Positions 1-6,705 of a DNA stretch of 64,000 bases are shown here, one piece after another. The DNA comes from Halomontanus rarus (lineage in GTDB: Archaea; Halobacteriota; Halobacteria; Halobacteriales; Natrialbaceae), in contig NZ_CP071597.1 in NCBI RefSeq assembly GCF_017357405.1, positions 3,038,001-3,102,000 on the forward strand, written 5' to 3'. Each line of letters begins with the position of its first letter. The stretch's first letter is position 1. The notes beneath the pieces were generated by a model. That model was not told the DNA's origin and did no database searches. It saw only the letters and a program-made list of their open reading frames with translations. The position numbers and the translations under genes were made by a program.

Positions 1-1647
1 GACTACTCGCTGCACGTCGTGATGCGCTTTCGCGAGGCTCGACAGGGGACCCTCGAGGACGACTTCGGAGCGAGGGAAACGGGAACGGACACCGCGACGG
101 CGACCGACGGCGAGGGTGACGCCGACGTCGGCTTGCGAGACGTCCGCGGGGGCATGCGCGTCGGCCTCGCTAGCGTCGTACTCGCGCTCGCGGCGGCGAC
201 GTTCTCGACCGGCGTCGGTTTCCTCTCGAACGTCGTGAGTCCGCTGGCTGCGGTTCAGGACTTCGCGATCCTGTGTGCCGGCGGTATCGTCGCCACGTTC
301 GTCGTCTTCGGCGCGCTCGTCCCCGCGGTCAAAGTCGAGGTTGACGACCTGCTCGAGGGTCGGTTCGGTCGAGACCGACAGCTCCCACCGTTCGGCGGCG
401 CGGGAGTCGTAAATCGTCTCCTCGCGGGCGGGGCCACGCTCGTTCGCCGAGCGCCGCTGGCCGTCGTCGTCGTCGCCGTTCTCCTCGCCGTAGGCGGGGC
501 CTACGGCGCGACGGGCATCGATACGGAGTTCAACCAGGCGGACTTCCTGCCCGAGGACGCCCCCGAGTGGGCGAAGTCCCTTCCCGGCCCGCTGGCCCCG
601 AACACGTACACGATCAGCGACGACGTCGCCTACCTCGGCGAGAACTTTCAGGAGCGGGGTGAAGGAACCCAAACACAGGTGCTCCTTCGGGGCGAGGTCA
701 CCGACCCCGCGACGCTCGTCGCGCTCGAGGACGCCGCGGCTTCCGTCGGAGACGGGACGATCACCCGTCGAGCCGACGGCGACCCGGCAATCGAGAGTCC
801 GCGGTCGGTCCTGTTGTCGGCGGCCGCCGAGAACGACACCGTCGCCGCCGCCCTCGAGGAGCGCGACACGTCCGGTAACGAGCTACCCGACGAGGATCTC
901 GCCGGTCTCTACGACGTGCTCTTCGAGGCCGATTCGGAGGCGGCGTCGGAGGTGCTCTATCGAACCGACTCTGGGGGGTACGAATCCGCCCGACTCCTCG
1001 TCAGCGTCCGCGGCGACGCGGCCGCACAGGACGTCGCCACCGACTCGAGGGCGCTCGCCGAGCGGATCGAATCCGGCGCCCCCGTTACGGCCGTCGCGAC
1101 CGGCGGGCCCGTCGTCACGGCGGTGGTCCAGGACGCGCTGCTCGAGACGCTCGTAGAGGCGTTCGTCGTCACGCTCGTCGTGATCCTCACCTTTCTCACG
1201 CTCCTGTACTGGCGTCGCTACGGCGCGCCCAGTCTCGGCGTGCTCACACTCGTACCCGTCGTCGCGGCGCTGTGTTGGCTGCTCGGGACCATGGCGGTCC
1301 TCGACATCCCGTTCAACAGCGAGACGGCCGTCATCACCAGCCTCGCGATCGGCCTCGGCGTCGACTACAGCATTCACGTCAGCGAACGGTTCGTGAGCGA
1401 ACGCGAGCGCACCGACGATCTCGAGCGGGCGCTGACGGCGACGGTGACGGGAACCGGCGGCGCGTTGCTGGGGAGTGCGGCGACGACGACTGCCGGCTTC
1501 GGCGTCCTCGCGCTCGCGCTCGCGCCGCCGCTCCAGCGGTTCGGTCTGGTGACGGGGTTGAGCATCGTCTTCGCGTTCGCGGCCTGTCTCACCGTGCTGC
1601 CGTGTCTGCTCGTGCTGCGCGAACGCCTCTCCCGGCGTGTGACGTAA
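1..1647 (+). CDS. RND/MMPL-superfamily exporter, 5' truncated
   Basis: The frame is open from base 1 and begins inside the conserved GVDYSLH-type helix (DYSLHVVMRF), so the true start lies upstream; 548 residues are present. The protein shows the two-fold RND layout: a membrane block (about residues 50-110), an extracytoplasmic loop domain (about 165-375), then a second membrane block (about 375-545). The second block repeats the GLGVDYSIH motif in which the Asp relays protons. Haloarchaeal members are proton- or sodium-driven exporters of unknown lipid or drug substrates. It ends about 90 bp before the convergent peptide gene, so it could export that cluster's product, but nothing in the sequence proves the link. 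Confidence 0.85.
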   Translation, partial: DYSLHVVMRFREARQGTLEDDFGARETGTDTATATDGEGDADVGLRDVRGGMRVGLASVVLALAAATFSTGVGFLSNVVSPLAAVQDFAILCAGGIVATFVVFGALVPAVKVEVDDLLEGRFGRDRQLPPFGGAGVVNRLLAGGATLVRRAPLAVVVVAVLLAVGGAYGATGIDTEFNQADFLPEDAPEWAKSLPGPLAPNTYTISDDVAYLGENFQERGEGTQTQVLLRGEVTDPATLVALEDAAASVGDGTITRRADGDPAIESPRSVLLSAAAENDTVAAALEERDTSGNELPDEDLAGLYDVLFEADSEAASEVLYRTDSGGYESARLLVSVRGDAAAQDVATDSRALAERIESGAPVTAVATGGPVVTAVVQDALLETLVEAFVVTLVVILTFLTLLYWRRYGAPSLGVLTLVPVVAALCWLLGTMAVLDIPFNSETAVITSLAIGLGVDYSIHVSERFVSERERTDDLERALTATVTGTGGALLGSAATTTAGFGVLALALAPPLQRFGLVTGLSIVFAFAACLTVLPCLLVLRERLSRRVT

Positions 1648-1738: not shown

Positions 1739-1876
1739 TCAACACCCGGTCTCGAAGCAGGCCATGGTCGTGGCTCCTTCCTCGCCGAGGGCCATCGTCG
1801 TGACCATCGGAGCGGCGTTCGATCGTTCCTCGAGGTCCTCTACGAAGTGCACAGTGTCGTCGTCGTTCGAACTCAT
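1739..1876 (-). CDS. Candidate graspetide (omega-ester/amide) precursor peptide, 45 aa
   Basis: I chose the start at the ATG giving MSSNDDD; the longer open frame upstream runs through the AT-rich divergent promoter and is unlikely to be translated. Residues 1-24 are acidic and could be a helical leader (VHFVEDLEER, 9-18). The C-terminal half is a tandem: TTMALGEE at 26-33 and TTMACFET at 36-43, ending GC. The first copy fits the TTxxxxEE core described for plesiocin, in which Thr hydroxyls are esterified to Glu side chains by an ATP-grasp ligase. Such a ligase is encoded divergently about 240 bp away. The second copy keeps TTxxxxE but has Thr instead of the second Glu. C40 and C45 could allow a disulfide. 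Calling it a precursor is inference from motif plus neighbourhood. Confidence 0.7.
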   Translation of the reverse strand: MSSNDDDTVHFVEDLEERSNAAPMVTTMALGEEGATTMACFETGC

Positions 1877-2112
1877 GCGGCCTACTATATTGTGGCACAC
1901 ACTATGAAAATTTATGAAGTGATAAAGTATATTGATACTGACTACTGGCGAACAATCAAAAATACATCTGGCGGTGACCGATGGAAGATTTGATGGAGTC
2001 CGATATAAAGTTCGCAATCTGGGCTCGGCACGTTTCGAGCCGTCCTTTCGTAACCTGGGCCGGACAAATTATCTCCAATAGTATTATTAATTTAAACAGC
2101 GATATGTGGGTT
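1877..2112. promoter_or_regulatory. AT-rich divergent promoter between peptide precursor and ATP-grasp gene
   Basis: This 236-bp spacer is much more AT-rich than its surroundings. On the minus strand a TATA-like CATAAATTTT lies at 1907-1916, about 30-40 bp before the precursor ATG. On the plus strand the stretch at about 2083-2096 (ATTATTAATTTAAA) lies about 20-30 bp before the ATG at 2113. Both spacings suit leaderless haloarchaeal transcripts. A short open frame continuing upstream to 1981 exists but overlaps this promoter-like sequence. Confidence 0.5.
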
Positions 2113-3060
2113 ATGTCCGTCCTGTCGATCGGTCCCGCGTCCGACCCCCAGATCGCCGCTATCACTCGAGCGCTCGAGGACCGCGGCGTCGAGACGACGC
2201 TGTGGAACGTCGATTCCTGGCCCGGTGACGAACCGGTCACCGTCGAGCGGCGAGGCGGGAACACGCGATTGGCCGTTCGGGGAGAGTCCGTCGATCCGAC
2301 CGAGTACCGGACGGCTTACTTGCGCGACCTCGGACTCGATCCGCGGTATCCCGCGTTCGAAGACGAGTTCGAGGATCGGCCGCTGTCGATGCTCAACCAG
2401 CTCCGCGAGTACCGCGGGCTGCTCCTGTCGGTCGTTCGATGGCTGTCGGACCACGGCGTTCGCGTGATCAACCCGCCCGAGGCGATGAGCGTCCACCGGC
2501 TCAAACCTTGGCAGCTGTCGACGCTCGCCGCGGCCGGCGTTCCGGTTCCCGAAACCTGCTCGACGAACGATCCCGGTGCCGTCAGGGCGTTCGCGGATCG
2601 CGTCGACGAGGTGATCTACAAACCGATCGCCGGCGGCGGACACGCCCGCCCCCTCGAGCCGTCGGACCTGACCGATGATCGGCTCTCGCGGCTGGCGAAC
2701 TCGCCGGTCCAGTTTCAAGAACGCGTCGACGGGGAGGACGTTCGCGTGTTCGTCGTCGACGGCGAGGTCGTCGCCGCCGCGCGAATCGTTTCCGACGCGC
2801 TCGACTACCGCAGTACGGATCACGACGTCGAGCGGATCGACCGAGCGGAACTTGACCCGGAGATCGAAGACGCCGCGATCAGGACGGCCGACTGCCTCGG
2901 GCTCCCGTTTACCGGCGTCGACGTGATCGACGCGGGTGATCGGTTCTGCGTTCTCGAGGCCAACCCGTCGCCGATGTTCGCGACGTTCGACGAACTCGCC
3001 GGGACGGACGTCGCGGGTGCGTTCGCAACGTTGCTGGCCGGACCTGATGGACGCAAATGA
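2113..3060 (+). CDS. RimK/MvdD-like ATP-grasp ligase, probable graspetide-modifying enzyme
   Basis: 315 residues with the layout of RimK/MvdC/MvdD-type ligases: an N-terminal preATP-grasp domain (MSVLSIGPASDP onward), a central ATP-binding lobe with K170 in VIYKPIAGGGH, the QERVDGEDVRVFVV strand pair, and a C-terminal metal/ATP site with E282 and N284 in VLEANPSP. Family members use ATP to activate carboxylates. RiPP versions form side-chain ester or amide rings in a precursor peptide. An in-frame ATG at 1981 would add 44 residues through promoter-like DNA, so I use 2113. The stop overlaps the next start (ATGA), implying co-translation with the M50 protease. The small TTxxxxEE peptide encoded divergently is the probable substrate. 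Confidence 0.8.
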   Translation: MSVLSIGPASDPQIAAITRALEDRGVETTLWNVDSWPGDEPVTVERRGGNTRLAVRGESVDPTEYRTAYLRDLGLDPRYPAFEDEFEDRPLSMLNQLREYRGLLLSVVRWLSDHGVRVINPPEAMSVHRLKPWQLSTLAAAGVPVPETCSTNDPGAVRAFADRVDEVIYKPIAGGGHARPLEPSDLTDDRLSRLANSPVQFQERVDGEDVRVFVVDGEVVAAARIVSDALDYRSTDHDVERIDRAELDPEIEDAAIRTADCLGLPFTGVDVIDAGDRFCVLEANPSPMFATFDELAGTDVAGAFATLLAGPDGRK

Positions 3061-4046
3061 CCGACGAGATGCCGAGTGAAACCGCCCGCGACGCCGAGAC
3101 CGACCCGCGGACTCGAGTCTCCGGTGAGAGTGTGAGTGTGAGTGAGAACGACAGGGAGTCATCTGCTGACGGTCGTCCCCGCCTCAGACGGGACTTCGGA
3201 TTCACGTGGGGCGAAACCGGCGAGACGATTTGGCTTCGCAACGACGACGGCGACTACAAACGCATCGAACCGGCGTTTCTGGACCCTCTGCTGGCGCTGG
3301 CCCGCGGCGAACGTGACCCCGAGACGGCCGGCCGGGACGTCCTGCGAGCGGTCGAGCTCCTCGCCGACGAGGGCTACCTCGAGGCGGGTGGCGAGGTCAC
3401 GCGGTACGAACCGCCGTCGGACATCCGGCTGTGGCCCAGACTCGCGGTTCTGGGAGCGGCGACGGTGGCGATGTGTGCACTGATCGCGACCCGCTGGTCC
3501 GCCATCTGGCGTCCGCCGGGGTCGGTCACCGGAACGGTGCTGATCGGTCCGTTCTTTATCGTCGTCACGCTGCTCCACGAACTCGGCCACTACGTCGCCA
3601 GCCGACCGTACTTCACGCCGCGGATCCGGCTCGACCGGTTGAACGGCGTCATTCCCGCGGTCGTCACCCGGACGAACGACGCCTGGCGGTGCCCGCGCAC
3701 CGTCCGGATCTGGATCAGTCTCGCCGGCCCCGCCGTCGACGTCGCGATCACGCTCGGACTGGCGGCCGCCTTCGTGTCGTCTCCCGAGTACGGGTTGCTG
3801 GGAACGCTGATTCTCGTCCAGTTATTTCGCCTGCTGTTCGTCCTGAATCCGCTCGTGGAAGGCGACGGCTACTGGCTGCTCGTCGACGTCTTCGAGACCC
3901 ACAACCTGCGGCCCCACGCCTTTCGAGACCTGCGTCGGGGTCGACCGACCGCCCCGGCGGCCTTCGCCGTCTCGATCGTCGCGTTCACCGGAGGGTTCGT
4001 CCTCGCGAGCGGCTACTTCCTGTTGCAGGTCGTCGGGTTGGTGTGA
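3057..4046 (+). CDS. M50-type peptide zinc metalloprotease with N-terminal PqqD/RRE-like segment
   Basis: 329 residues. After an acidic low-complexity start (1-43), residues about 44-115 resemble the small winged-helix PqqD/RiPP-recognition fold. Several membrane helices follow, with the zinc motif HELGH at 174-178 and the distal site NPLVEGDGYWLLVD including D270. The NPxxxxDGYxLLxD pattern and following NLRP are typical of the 'putative peptide zinc metalloprotease' (YydH-like) branch of intramembrane site-2 proteases, often found in peptide-natural-product clusters. It overlaps the ATP-grasp gene by ATGA. Likely role: leader removal or membrane processing of the modified peptide. The RRE-like reading is inference from sequence pattern; the protease call is firm. 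Confidence 0.8.
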   Translation: MTDEMPSETARDAETDPRTRVSGESVSVSENDRESSADGRPRLRRDFGFTWGETGETIWLRNDDGDYKRIEPAFLDPLLALARGERDPETAGRDVLRAVELLADEGYLEAGGEVTRYEPPSDIRLWPRLAVLGAATVAMCALIATRWSAIWRPPGSVTGTVLIGPFFIVVTLLHELGHYVASRPYFTPRIRLDRLNGVIPAVVTRTNDAWRCPRTVRIWISLAGPAVDVAITLGLAAAFVSSPEYGLLGTLILVQLFRLLFVLNPLVEGDGYWLLVDVFETHNLRPHAFRDLRRGRPTAPAAFAVSIVAFTGGFVLASGYFLLQVVGLV

Positions 4047-4132: not shown

Positions 4133-5089
4133 CTACCCGCTCTCGTCGTCGGAGTCTGCGTCGGAATTGGAGTCTGAGTCGGAGCCGGAGTGTGCCCGCA
4201 CCCACAGCTCTCCGATCCTCGAGAGTCGCGTCCGGTAGGACTTCCCGTGTTCCTCCCGCTCGATGTAGCCCTTCCCGCCCGGCCCCAGCCGATCGACGTT
4301 GTAGATCACCTTCGACCGGAAGCTGTCGGTGTACTCCTCGTTCAGTTCGTCGGCCAGCGCCTCCGCTAGTTCCGAGACGGAGTCGAACTCGCCGTCCTCG
4401 CCCAGTTTGTACAAAATGAGCTCCTCGAACGGTTTGACGTTCGAGAAGGAGGCGACGGGCAACTCGACGATGTGGCTGCCGTCGATCTCCTTGGCGCCGA
4501 TCGTGGTCCCCCGTTCGTCGAACTCCGCGAGCAGGTCGCGGGCGCTCTCGAGTCTGGTCTCGATGCGGTCGTCCGGGACCTCGCCGTCGGCGTCGACTCT
4601 CCCCGCCGTCGCGAGCAGATCCTCGAGTAGCGCCGACTGCTCGCGCAGTTCCTCGGCGAGCTCGGTCTCGAGGTACTTCTCGGGAGCCGTGTAGTAGGTG
4701 TGGATGTGCTCGCGCTCCTCCTGGCGTTCGACCATCAGCGAGTGGGCAGCGGTGGCGAAGGCGAAGCTCACCGTACGGGGCATCGCGGCGATGTTGACCC
4801 AGACCTCGTTTCCCCGATCGAGTTCGACCGTGATCAGGTCGTAGGCCTGCTCGAACGCCTCGTCGTAGTCGTAGACGTCCTCCAGAACGAACCGTTCGGT
4901 CGTCGCCCCCAGCAGGTTCTGGAAGTCCGTCTCGAGTTTCCGCGAGAGGTGGCGGGAGTACTCGACGTTGGCCTCGCTGCCGACCGCGCCCTCGAGCAAG
5001 ATGACGCGGTCGACGTCGCACTGATCGCGCACGAGCGGGGCGATCAGCCGGTCGTAGTCGAATCCGACCGGGACGATGTGGGTGTGCAT
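4133..5089 (-). CDS. HFX_2341/DUF6293-family transcriptional-regulator-like protein
   Basis: 318 residues from the ATG at 5089 (MHTHIVPVGFDYDRL). The N-terminal 140 residues form a Rossmann-like CARF/DUF6293-type domain (IVPVGFDYDRLIAPLV, then VWVNIAAMPRTVSFAFATAA). The C-terminal part (about 210-300) looks like a winged helix with the end pattern YxxxxxxLGPGGKGYIEREEHGKSY. The tail is Ser/Asp-rich (GSDSDSNSDADSDD), coded by hexameric repeat DNA. Homologues are widespread haloarchaeal proteins annotated as regulators; a ligand for the CARF-like domain is unknown. Convergent with the M50 gene, so not obviously in that operon. Confidence 0.7.
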   Translation of the reverse strand: MHTHIVPVGFDYDRLIAPLVRDQCDVDRVILLEGAVGSEANVEYSRHLSRKLETDFQNLLGATTERFVLEDVYDYDEAFEQAYDLITVELDRGNEVWVNIAAMPRTVSFAFATAAHSLMVERQEEREHIHTYYTAPEKYLETELAEELREQSALLEDLLATAGRVDADGEVPDDRIETRLESARDLLAEFDERGTTIGAKEIDGSHIVELPVASFSNVKPFEELILYKLGEDGEFDSVSELAEALADELNEEYTDSFRSKVIYNVDRLGPGGKGYIEREEHGKSYRTRLSRIGELWVRAHSGSDSDSNSDADSDDESG

Positions 5090-5202
5090 GCACCGAGATT
5101 GGGAGGTAGCCGCCGTAATGGTGTTGGTCTCCGGTAGGTGCTGATATCTCACCCTCGAAGCCGTTCAGTTGTCCGGCTCGCACAACAGTTAAGCCGTTTC
5201 TG

Positions 5203-5214
5203 CACACATGTGTG
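5203..5214. promoter_or_regulatory. Perfect 12-bp palindrome, candidate VapB operator
   Basis: CACACATGTGTG is self-complementary and lies immediately before the vapB ATG (5218), where TATA and transcription-start elements of a leaderless gene would be. Toxin-antitoxin operons are usually repressed by the antitoxin binding such palindromes. Confidence 0.5.
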
Positions 5215-5217
5215 TGC

Positions 5218-5463
5218 ATGGGTGAAACTGAGTATCGTAATATTCGGCTCACCGAGGACGCGTATCAGCGCCTCAAAAGTCGCAAACAGGCCGGCGAATC
5301 GTTCTCCGACACCGTCGAACGAATCGCTGGCGAGCGGTCGCTGCTCGACCTGGCGGGAATCCTCTCCGACGAGGAAGCCGAAGAGATGCGTGAGGCGATT
5401 CGAGAACGGGAAGAACGATCACGTGACAGACTCGACCGGCTTACCGATCAGATGGACACGTGA
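5218..5463 (+). CDS. vapB: VapB-family antitoxin
   Basis: 81 residues starting MGETEYRNIRLTEDAYQRL, which matches the N-terminal strand-helix of the DUF217/VapB antitoxins. The C-terminal half is a charged helix (SDEEAEEMREAIREREERS) suited to wrapping the PIN toxin. A GTG two codons upstream is possible, but the ATG at 5218 directly follows the palindrome. Its stop overlaps the toxin's GTG start (GTGA), giving translational coupling. Expected role: bind and neutralise the VapC RNase and repress the operon through its DNA-binding end. Confidence 0.85.
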   Translation: MGETEYRNIRLTEDAYQRLKSRKQAGESFSDTVERIAGERSLLDLAGILSDEEAEEMREAIREREERSRDRLDRLTDQMDT

Positions 5464-5852
5464 TCGTCGATACGAACGTTCTCATCCGCGTGATGCAGGA
5501 CAACGAGCAAGCCACGCGAAAGATTGCCGATTTAGAGGACCAGCACGTCCGACTCCGTCTTTCGTCGGTATCTCAGTTCGAACTCTATCATAGCATCGAA
5601 CGCGTGAATAATCCCGCCGAACGCCGGCGAAAAATCGAGGCGGTGCTCGAATCGAAACCGACGTATCCCGCTGACGATGCCGTGATGAAGAAGGCGGGAC
5701 GAATCGACGGGAAACTCACTGCGGACGGGTGCGCCGTCGGGATCGGAGATACGATTATCGGCGCAACAGCGCTCGTTCACGAGGAACCGGTTCTCACGGA
5801 AAACGTCGAGCACTTCGAGCGAATCGACGGCCTCGAGATCGAATCGTACTAG
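5460..5852 (+). CDS. vapC: VapC-family PIN-domain ribonuclease toxin
   Basis: 130 residues from a GTG start (MIVDTNVLIRV). The PIN-domain acidic residues are visible: D4 in the first strand, E41 in FELYHSIERV and D97 in VGIGDTIIGATAL, followed by the TENVEHF element near 113-119. Family members are Mg-dependent RNases, often cleaving tRNA or rRNA, and are held inactive by VapB. It directly overlaps vapB. No disabling change is seen. Confidence 0.9.
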   Translation: MIVDTNVLIRVMQDNEQATRKIADLEDQHVRLRLSSVSQFELYHSIERVNNPAERRRKIEAVLESKPTYPADDAVMKKAGRIDGKLTADGCAVGIGDTIIGATALVHEEPVLTENVEHFERIDGLEIESY

Positions 5853-5931: not shown

Positions 5932-6705
5932 TCACTGCTCGTCACCGTCGGGTCGACTCGTCTCAGTCTCGGTTGTGCCCTCCTTCTCTTCGAGGCCCAC
6001 CGTCCGGACCAACTCGAGTACCGCCTCCCGGTCGCGTCCGGGGTCCACCTCGAGCGCGTCGGCGATCGGGGCGGGAGCGTCCTCGGAGATCCCCAGCGGC
6101 ACGGTGCCGCCGGCCATACGGTAGGCGTCGTCGGTCGGCCAGATCGCGAGGTGGGTTTCGGCGTCGATTCGGGGATTGTGGAGTTCGTCGGTGTCGGTTT
6201 CCGTTTCGGCTTCGGACTCGGCGTGGACCGACACCACCGGATACGAAACCGACAGCGTGTACCACCGACCGACGGTTCCGTCGCCGCGGTCGAACTCGCT
6301 CGCGGTCCGGTCGTCACCGTCACCGTCGGCGACGACGATCCCGTCGTCCTTGAGCCGGCCGACGAACAGATCGGTCGCCTTCTCGGCGGCGGTCCCGAGT
6401 ACCGCCGTCGGTGCGAGACCCACCGACGACAGCGACGGAGTCGACGAGAGATCGACGACGAACAGCGATCGGATCGGAATGTCGCCGCCGTTCCGCGTGT
6501 TAGTTTCGTCGTCCGGTTCGTCGACTTCGGGATCGGGATCGGTACGGGAACGGAGACGGAGATCCGCCCGCTCGAGCCGCGTCGATTCGCGTTCGTACAG
6601 CGTCGTCTCGGCGACGACGGTGGCGACGCCGAACTCCATTTCGTCCGTGTCGGTGCCGATCGCGCGCCACTCGTCGGCGAGCGACTGCGGCAACTCGCTG
6701 ACCAT
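5932..6705 (-). CDS. Haloarchaeal hypothetical protein (DUF6517-like?)
   Basis: 257 residues from MVSELPQSLADEW. The open frame extends 35 residues further upstream but that part is low-complexity and overlaps the end of the symporter gene. No catalytic motif is recognised. The central region has alternating strands (IPIRSLFVVDLSSTPSLSSVGLAPTAVLG), then a strand pair with an ETETDTDE insert and LAIWPTDDAYRMAGGTVPLG. Predicted soluble. It follows the symporter/DUF3311 pair on the same strand but with a separate gap. Function unknown. Confidence 0.55.
   Translation of the reverse strand: MVSELPQSLADEWRAIGTDTDEMEFGVATVVAETTLYERESTRLERADLRLRSRTDPDPEVDEPDDETNTRNGGDIPIRSLFVVDLSSTPSLSSVGLAPTAVLGTAAEKATDLFVGRLKDDGIVVADGDGDDRTASEFDRGDGTVGRWYTLSVSYPVVSVHAESEAETETDTDELHNPRIDAETHLAIWPTDDAYRMAGGTVPLGISEDAPAPIADALEVDPGRDREAVLELVRTVGLEEKEGTTETETSRPDGDEQ

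Follow-up and report, generated by a model that had tools for sequence, protein, structure and literature searches.

A putative three-gene graspetide cassette of the plesiocin type in haloarchaea

A 64,000-nucleotide stretch of the genome of Halomontanus rarus (NZ_CP071597.1, positions 3,038,001 to 3,102,000; here called the window, from a genome of 5.17 Mb in two contigs) carries a short gene for a precursor peptide and a gene for an ATP-grasp ligase that, judged by their sequences, very probably serve to make a small ring-tied peptide of the type of plesiocin, a bacterial protease inhibitor, and with them a gene for a membrane-bound M50 protease that may free the finished peptide. We are fairly confident that a three-gene graspetide cassette resembling group 2, including the mechanism proposed below, is the best explanation of this locus. 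The observations that it rests on are the genes themselves, their conservation and co-occurrence, the predicted folds and an empty site in a sister genome, and from these we infer the chemistry.

The ligase, its peptide and their conservation

An initial annotation of this DNA had described a divergent RimK/MvdD-like ATP-grasp ligase next to a 45-residue gene with TTMALGEE and TTMACFET at its C-terminus, and both are confirmed (Table 1). The ligase is of the RimK type, and PsnB (approximately 35% identity) is its best match by profile as well as by fold, ahead of RimK and LysX, which places it with the graspetide-synthetase kind of ATP-grasp ligases. Its open frame also has an ATG at 1981; we prefer the start at 2113, where the alignment of orthologues begins. 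Together with a leader and core that resemble the PsnA2 substrate, the closeness to PsnB supports the proposal that this is a haloarchaeal graspetide system. The likeness to PsnA2 was established via a plesiocin-like homologue (P0153) and by eye; a direct match of the peptide to PsnA2 among solved structures was sought and none was found.

The peptide gene and the ligase gene face away from each other on opposite strands, and in several orthologues an AT-rich, TATA-like stretch is seen by eye approximately 30-40 bases 5' of the peptide ATG. Within the 12 codons of the leader, six pairwise comparisons gave at most one non-synonymous change (0 or 1) against 1 to 6 synonymous ones, the dN/dS of the whole peptide gene is approximately 0.06-0.33 (five pairs), and a profile of the peptide has a single match in its entire own genome. 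Co-location, purifying selection and this single match make the pairing of peptide gene and ligase more than chance. Where source databases name the precursors at all, they are called "hypothetical" or "uncharacterized".

The named relatives are haloarchaea, e.g. Halomontanus, Natrinema, Natronolimnobius and Halopiger, in the family Natrialbaceae; Natrinema halophilum is a host of the cassette that can be cultured. At an E-value of 1e-30 or better the ligase is present in nine of 125 genomes of the family, the other eight at 60-72% identity to the window ligase. All nine close loci, the window included, have the peptide upstream on the opposite strand, the protease downstream, and beside the ligase a leader and core with Thr/Ser/Lys donors and Asp/Glu acceptors. 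Two core types follow the segment HFVEDLEER.NA, which is invariant in these loci save for one position: TTxAxGEE...T[ML][AS]CxETGC in four loci, among them the window, and type B, TTxxxGECPEKC[WS], which has no TTxxxxEE, in five. TT....GE is invariant in all nine, and the C-termini vary (GC, CW, CS). Module 1 of the window peptide has the TTxxxxEE of group 2, and [TS]TxxxxEE is present in 34 of 43 homologous proteins.

A search of 391 genomes of the class matched the ligase profile at 18 places in 15 genomes, the protease profile in 14 genomes, every one among those 15, and the peptide profile in ten genomes, eight of them with the ligase; for association with the ligase, Fisher tests uncorrected for kinship gave 8e-25 (protease) and 2e-11 (peptide). 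With four more genomes of the family, which were missing from the class sample, the loci number 21, and the protease is present at 19 of them (it is missing at L057 and L061). The initial annotation would have been in difficulty had homologous ligases never neighbored TTxxxxE peptides, and they do: such a peptide (TTxxxGE in type B) adjoins the ligase in all nine close loci and, among 12 more distant loci, in three. Gene order varies: the peptide gene lies upstream and divergent in the nine close loci, downstream and convergent in L053 and L054, and upstream on the same strand in L052.

The limits of the cassette are given by the sister genome (G007), from the same genus, which lacks it yet carries the flanking MMPL gene and HFX_2341 regulator. 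Window positions 1521-1639 align to 5160-5278 of its locus (L070) and positions 4188-4250 to 5438-5500, so that in place of 2,548 window bases the sister genome has 159 bases that show no significant similarity to the cassette. A precursor remnant in these 159 bases was considered and rejected, its alignment score being matched by 111 of 200 shuffles. From the boundaries of the empty site, the unit therefore consists of three genes, without a transporter or regulator. The NHLM-type transporter commonly found near group 2 is accordingly not among them; it co-occurs highly with that group and does not define it (PMC13097080; papers are cited here by PMC number for the parts of their text consulted). 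No conserved transporter was recognized in the neighborhoods of the loci.

Table 1. Features of the cassette, in window coordinates
Feature	Positions	Strand	Basis or remark
Stretch missing in sister genome	1640..4187	none	Three genes plus the last codons of both flanking genes
Precursor peptide, 45 aa	1739..1876	minus	ORF (open reading frame) with ATG start, MSSNDDDTVHFVEDLEERSNAAPMVTTMALGEEGATTMACFETGC; conserved next to ligase
Core module 2, TTMACFETGC	1742..1771	minus	One Thr-Glu ester and a Cys pair predicted; chemistry putative
Core module 1, TTMALGEE	1778..1801	minus	Two nested Thr-Glu esters predicted (plesiocin hairpin); esters putative
Leader segment HFVEDLEERSNA	1814..1849	minus	Likeness to PsnA2 LFIEDL
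Divergent intergenic region	1877..2112	none	42% G+C
ATP-grasp graspetide synthetase, PsnB type, 315 aa	2113..3060	plus	Profile and fold comparison, orthologue alignment
RRE-like domain fused to M50/site-2 protease, 329 aa, candidate leader peptidase	3057..4046	plus	Motifs, predicted fold, co-occurrence
RRE-like domain (lasso B1/PqqD-type), residues 44-110	3186..3386	plus	Middling fold match
HELGH zinc motif of M50 protease	3576..3590	plus	Sequence motif

Proposed pathway and alternative readings

By homology, we suggest that the cassette works in three steps: (i) the ligase would bind the leader at HFVEDL and use ATP to phosphorylate Glu side chains of the core, and attack by Thr hydroxyls would then close TTMALGEE with two nested esters and TTMACFETGC with a single one (Thr2-Glu7, in the numbering of plesiocin esters), three dehydrations in total; (ii) the RRE-like domain of the M50 protein would hold the leader while its site-2-protease domain cuts near ER.NA, a leader motif that may mark the cleavage region, and the same protein may help the peptide out through the membrane, the cassette having no transporter; and (iii) the product would be a serine protease inhibitor, as are plesiocin and the microviridins (PMC13097080). 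By analogy, an extracellular halophilic protease is a natural guess for the target.

As the initial annotation had noted, an M50 metalloprotease gene overlaps the ligase gene; its ATG overlaps the ligase stop by four bases. The Pfam M50 model scores only 13.8 bits (cut-off 27.2), though HELGH and NPLVEGDG, the HExxH and NPxxxxDG motifs of M50/site-2 proteases, are both there within a membrane helix core, and H174, E175, H178, N264, P265 and D270 are invariant in 34 aligned sequences. NF041824 and NF058609 match all 34 protease relatives, the window protein at 54.3 and 23.7 bits, far under the cut-offs of 300 and 225. The predicted model (predicted local distance difference test, pLDDT, 87.3; residues 1-37 mostly below 50) comprises an RRE-like domain and a site-2-protease core; the match of the former to the winged-helix fold of lasso B1/PqqD proteins is middling and came from a second look at the fold comparison, and a Foldseek search of the model against the PDB gave no match at an E-value of 0.001.

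On this model, the RRE-M50 protein may be a candidate graspetide leader peptidase, an enzyme described as unknown in 2022 (PMC8939145). C39 transporters serve in some graspetide pathways (PMC10885120), and in the parts consulted of the literature on graspetides and on M50 enzymes of the pathways for ribosomally synthesized and post-translationally modified peptides (RiPPs) we found no graspetide paired with an RRE-M50 protein. Alternatively, ligase and precursor are what they seem, the M50 protein acts in self-protection or signaling, and a housekeeping protease cuts the leader. The two loci without the M50 gene fit this model, as does the lack of a firm RRE assignment (PqqD profiles match only one of the 34 relatives), and a protease next to a graspetide cluster may have a part in maturation or in resistance (PMC13097080). 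Against it, the RRE-like fold match and the near-total co-occurrence with the ligase suggest that the M50 protein handles the precursor itself, and M50 proteases cleave peptides in the epipeptide and pearlin pathways (PMC10885120). We consider the alternative unlikely and favor leader removal by the M50 protein.

The second core module is where the initial annotation needs amendment. It had expected two hairpins per peptide, the second altered; module 2 does differ, but a second full hairpin is not expected, and a conserved Cys module, predicted to hold one ester, takes its place. Among 38 peptides with an HF/HY leader (P0111-P0148), 29 have CxETGC, seven CPEKC and two neither. At the first donor position of module 2, nine of the 29 CxETGC peptides have Thr and 20 have I, V, L or M; at the second, every one of the 29 has Thr or Ser, the search pattern itself fixing the Glu, the second Thr and both Cys of this module; in the 27 that also bear the hairpin, the first donor of module 1 is Thr or Ser in all 27, the pattern here fixing the donor pair itself. 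With its first Thr replaced in 20 of these 29 peptides, module 2 is expected to carry one ester. In most homologues its outer pair is missing on both sides, and the donor statistics favor one inner ester with a kept Cys pair, perhaps a disulfide. The window module itself retains TT, and graspetide synthetases can form non-native thioesters (PMC13097080), which would suit a two-link ring here as well, through a Cys thioester or an alternative Thr, and four links in the product. In view of the replaced first position and of a reported group 2 graspetide that lacks one donor-acceptor set and showed one dehydration (PMC9576775), we regard four links as improbable. The calculated mass of the full-length precursor is 4811.995 Da; three dehydrations would lower it to 4757.963 Da and four to 4739.953 Da, and a core released after Ala21 would have 2421.003 Da in linear form and 2364.956 Da with three dehydrations and a disulfide.

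A pearlin-like or RimK-like system, in which the ATP-grasp enzyme extends the peptide C-terminus by an amino acid that the M50 protein then clips off, would parallel the M50 enzymes TglG and TmoG, which clip C-terminal residues in pearlin pathways (PMC10885120), and some distant cores do lack acid residues. This reading is very hard to sustain: the ligase is nearest PsnB, not RimK, the C-termini vary while TT....GE is invariant, and a LanB-like amino-acid-adding gene is not among the three. An unrelated RimK-like ligase beside a spurious reading frame deserves next to no credence: the peptide gene is short, and its Halocatena counterpart is absent from the PLSDB gene table of its plasmid, a table known to be incomplete, but purifying selection, co-location in all nine close loci and three different gene orders contradict chance.

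Distant loci and neighboring genes

A leader profile was searched against 6,765 six-frame ORFs from 20 loci and the entire window. Its ranks 1-16 are 16 peptides adjoining a ligase-protease pair, above everything unrelated, the training set of 38 homologues including or closely resembling the peptides of many of these loci; only the matches at L052, L055, L056, L057 and L060 are clearly independent of it, and E-values are weak for L055 (0.039), L056 (4.1), L057 (0.064) and L060 (1.3). The profile found no peptide at L058, L059, L061, L062 and L063; candidate precursors at L058, L059, L062 and L063 were seen by eye only. The cores of the profile-matched peptides differ widely, and the precursors of L056 and L057 end in TPITWFGG, an acid-free core, beside the ligase or its protease. 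Such cores (..TPITWFGG, ..TYYTGGCIAYC), together with the Cys-pair modules, lead us to a tentative and still doubtful broader proposal: a haloarchaeal RiPP family of constant leader and free core, in which a lineage of PsnB-type ligases would have moved beyond Thr-Glu esters and an RRE-fused site-2 protease would remove the leader and release the product through the membrane without a transporter.

Two of the ten class-wide peptide matches lie outside ligase genomes. One, in G059 (L064, approximately 6052-6531, minus strand), has the look of a decayed precursor gene (VHSVEDLEERSNAPPM...), with a valyl-tRNA synthetase-like gene, recognized by eye, next to it; a profile search found no ligase in that genome. 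The other, in G179 (E-value 0.0066, inside a longer frame), is probably chance. Among 16 candidate stretches on viral contigs there was one distant relative.

Syntenic neighbors outside the cassette are the MMPL gene (five loci), a valyl-tRNA synthetase-like gene (four loci, L016, L018, L020 and L023, two of them scanned) and the HFX_2341-family regulator (window 4133-5152, minus strand), which is syntenic in all nine close loci and extends beyond the empty-site limits. A VapB-type antitoxin and PIN-domain toxin pair lies at 5212-5852 (Pfam VAPB_antitox 65.9 bits, PIN 52.6 bits). In L018 (6004-6909; same record as L005, Natrinema gelatinilyticum) the ligase frame has no aligned start codon and is therefore perhaps an interrupted gene or a sequencing error. 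L059, on a plasmid matching Halorussus salilacus NZ_CP099994, has a tandem pair of ligase genes and one protease. A TnpB-like gene (Cas12f1-like TNB, scanned in L056) neighbors both the L056 and L057 cassettes.

Relation to known systems and origin

The closest known system is plesiocin PsnA2/PsnB, the host of which is presumably Plesiocystis pacifica. The two share a single ligase, nearest PsnB in our case, a leader with LFIEDL versus HFVEDL and a core with TTLAIGEE versus TTMALGEE. Plesiocin has four hairpin repeats, whereas the window peptide has one hairpin and a Cys module and lacks a GG motif; the archaeal host, the M50 protease with its RRE-like domain and the divergent precursor gene also set the cassette apart. 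Gra-5 of group 2 likewise has a core without one donor-acceptor set and showed one dehydration; it comes from a study of bacterial clusters, the consulted part of which mentions no Cys module (PMC9576775). Graspetide group 36 of the Thermoprotea is also predicted and archaeal, but, compared by its description, belongs to another archaeal lineage and is often accompanied by a protein of weak similarity to a chromosome segregation protein (PMC13097080). The M50 proteins of epipeptide, daptide and pearlin pathways (YydH/LiaK, NF041824, TglG) are similar as proteases, but accompany other modifying enzymes. Our literature search found nothing tying graspetides, or ATP-grasp RiPPs, to haloarchaea, and among papers on graspetides in archaea no title concerning haloarchaeal ones; it covered texts outside the supplements, and published data sets may already include members.

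P0053 and its close twin P0054 fall into the 33-row cluster containing the haloarchaeal ligases; P0053 is encoded on a 4.4-kb contig, and its Myxococcota label is the one given by its source. Plesiocin itself is, we assume, myxobacterial. Transfer between domains is likely, its direction not being settled by a quick tree. The cassette would place plesiocin-type chemistry in haloarchaea with a nearly bacterial substrate, which points to such inter-domain transfer, and its RRE-M50 protein is a concrete candidate for the peptidase that removes graspetide leaders. Its small size (three genes), the predicted masses and the sister genome that lacks it should make it quick to test.
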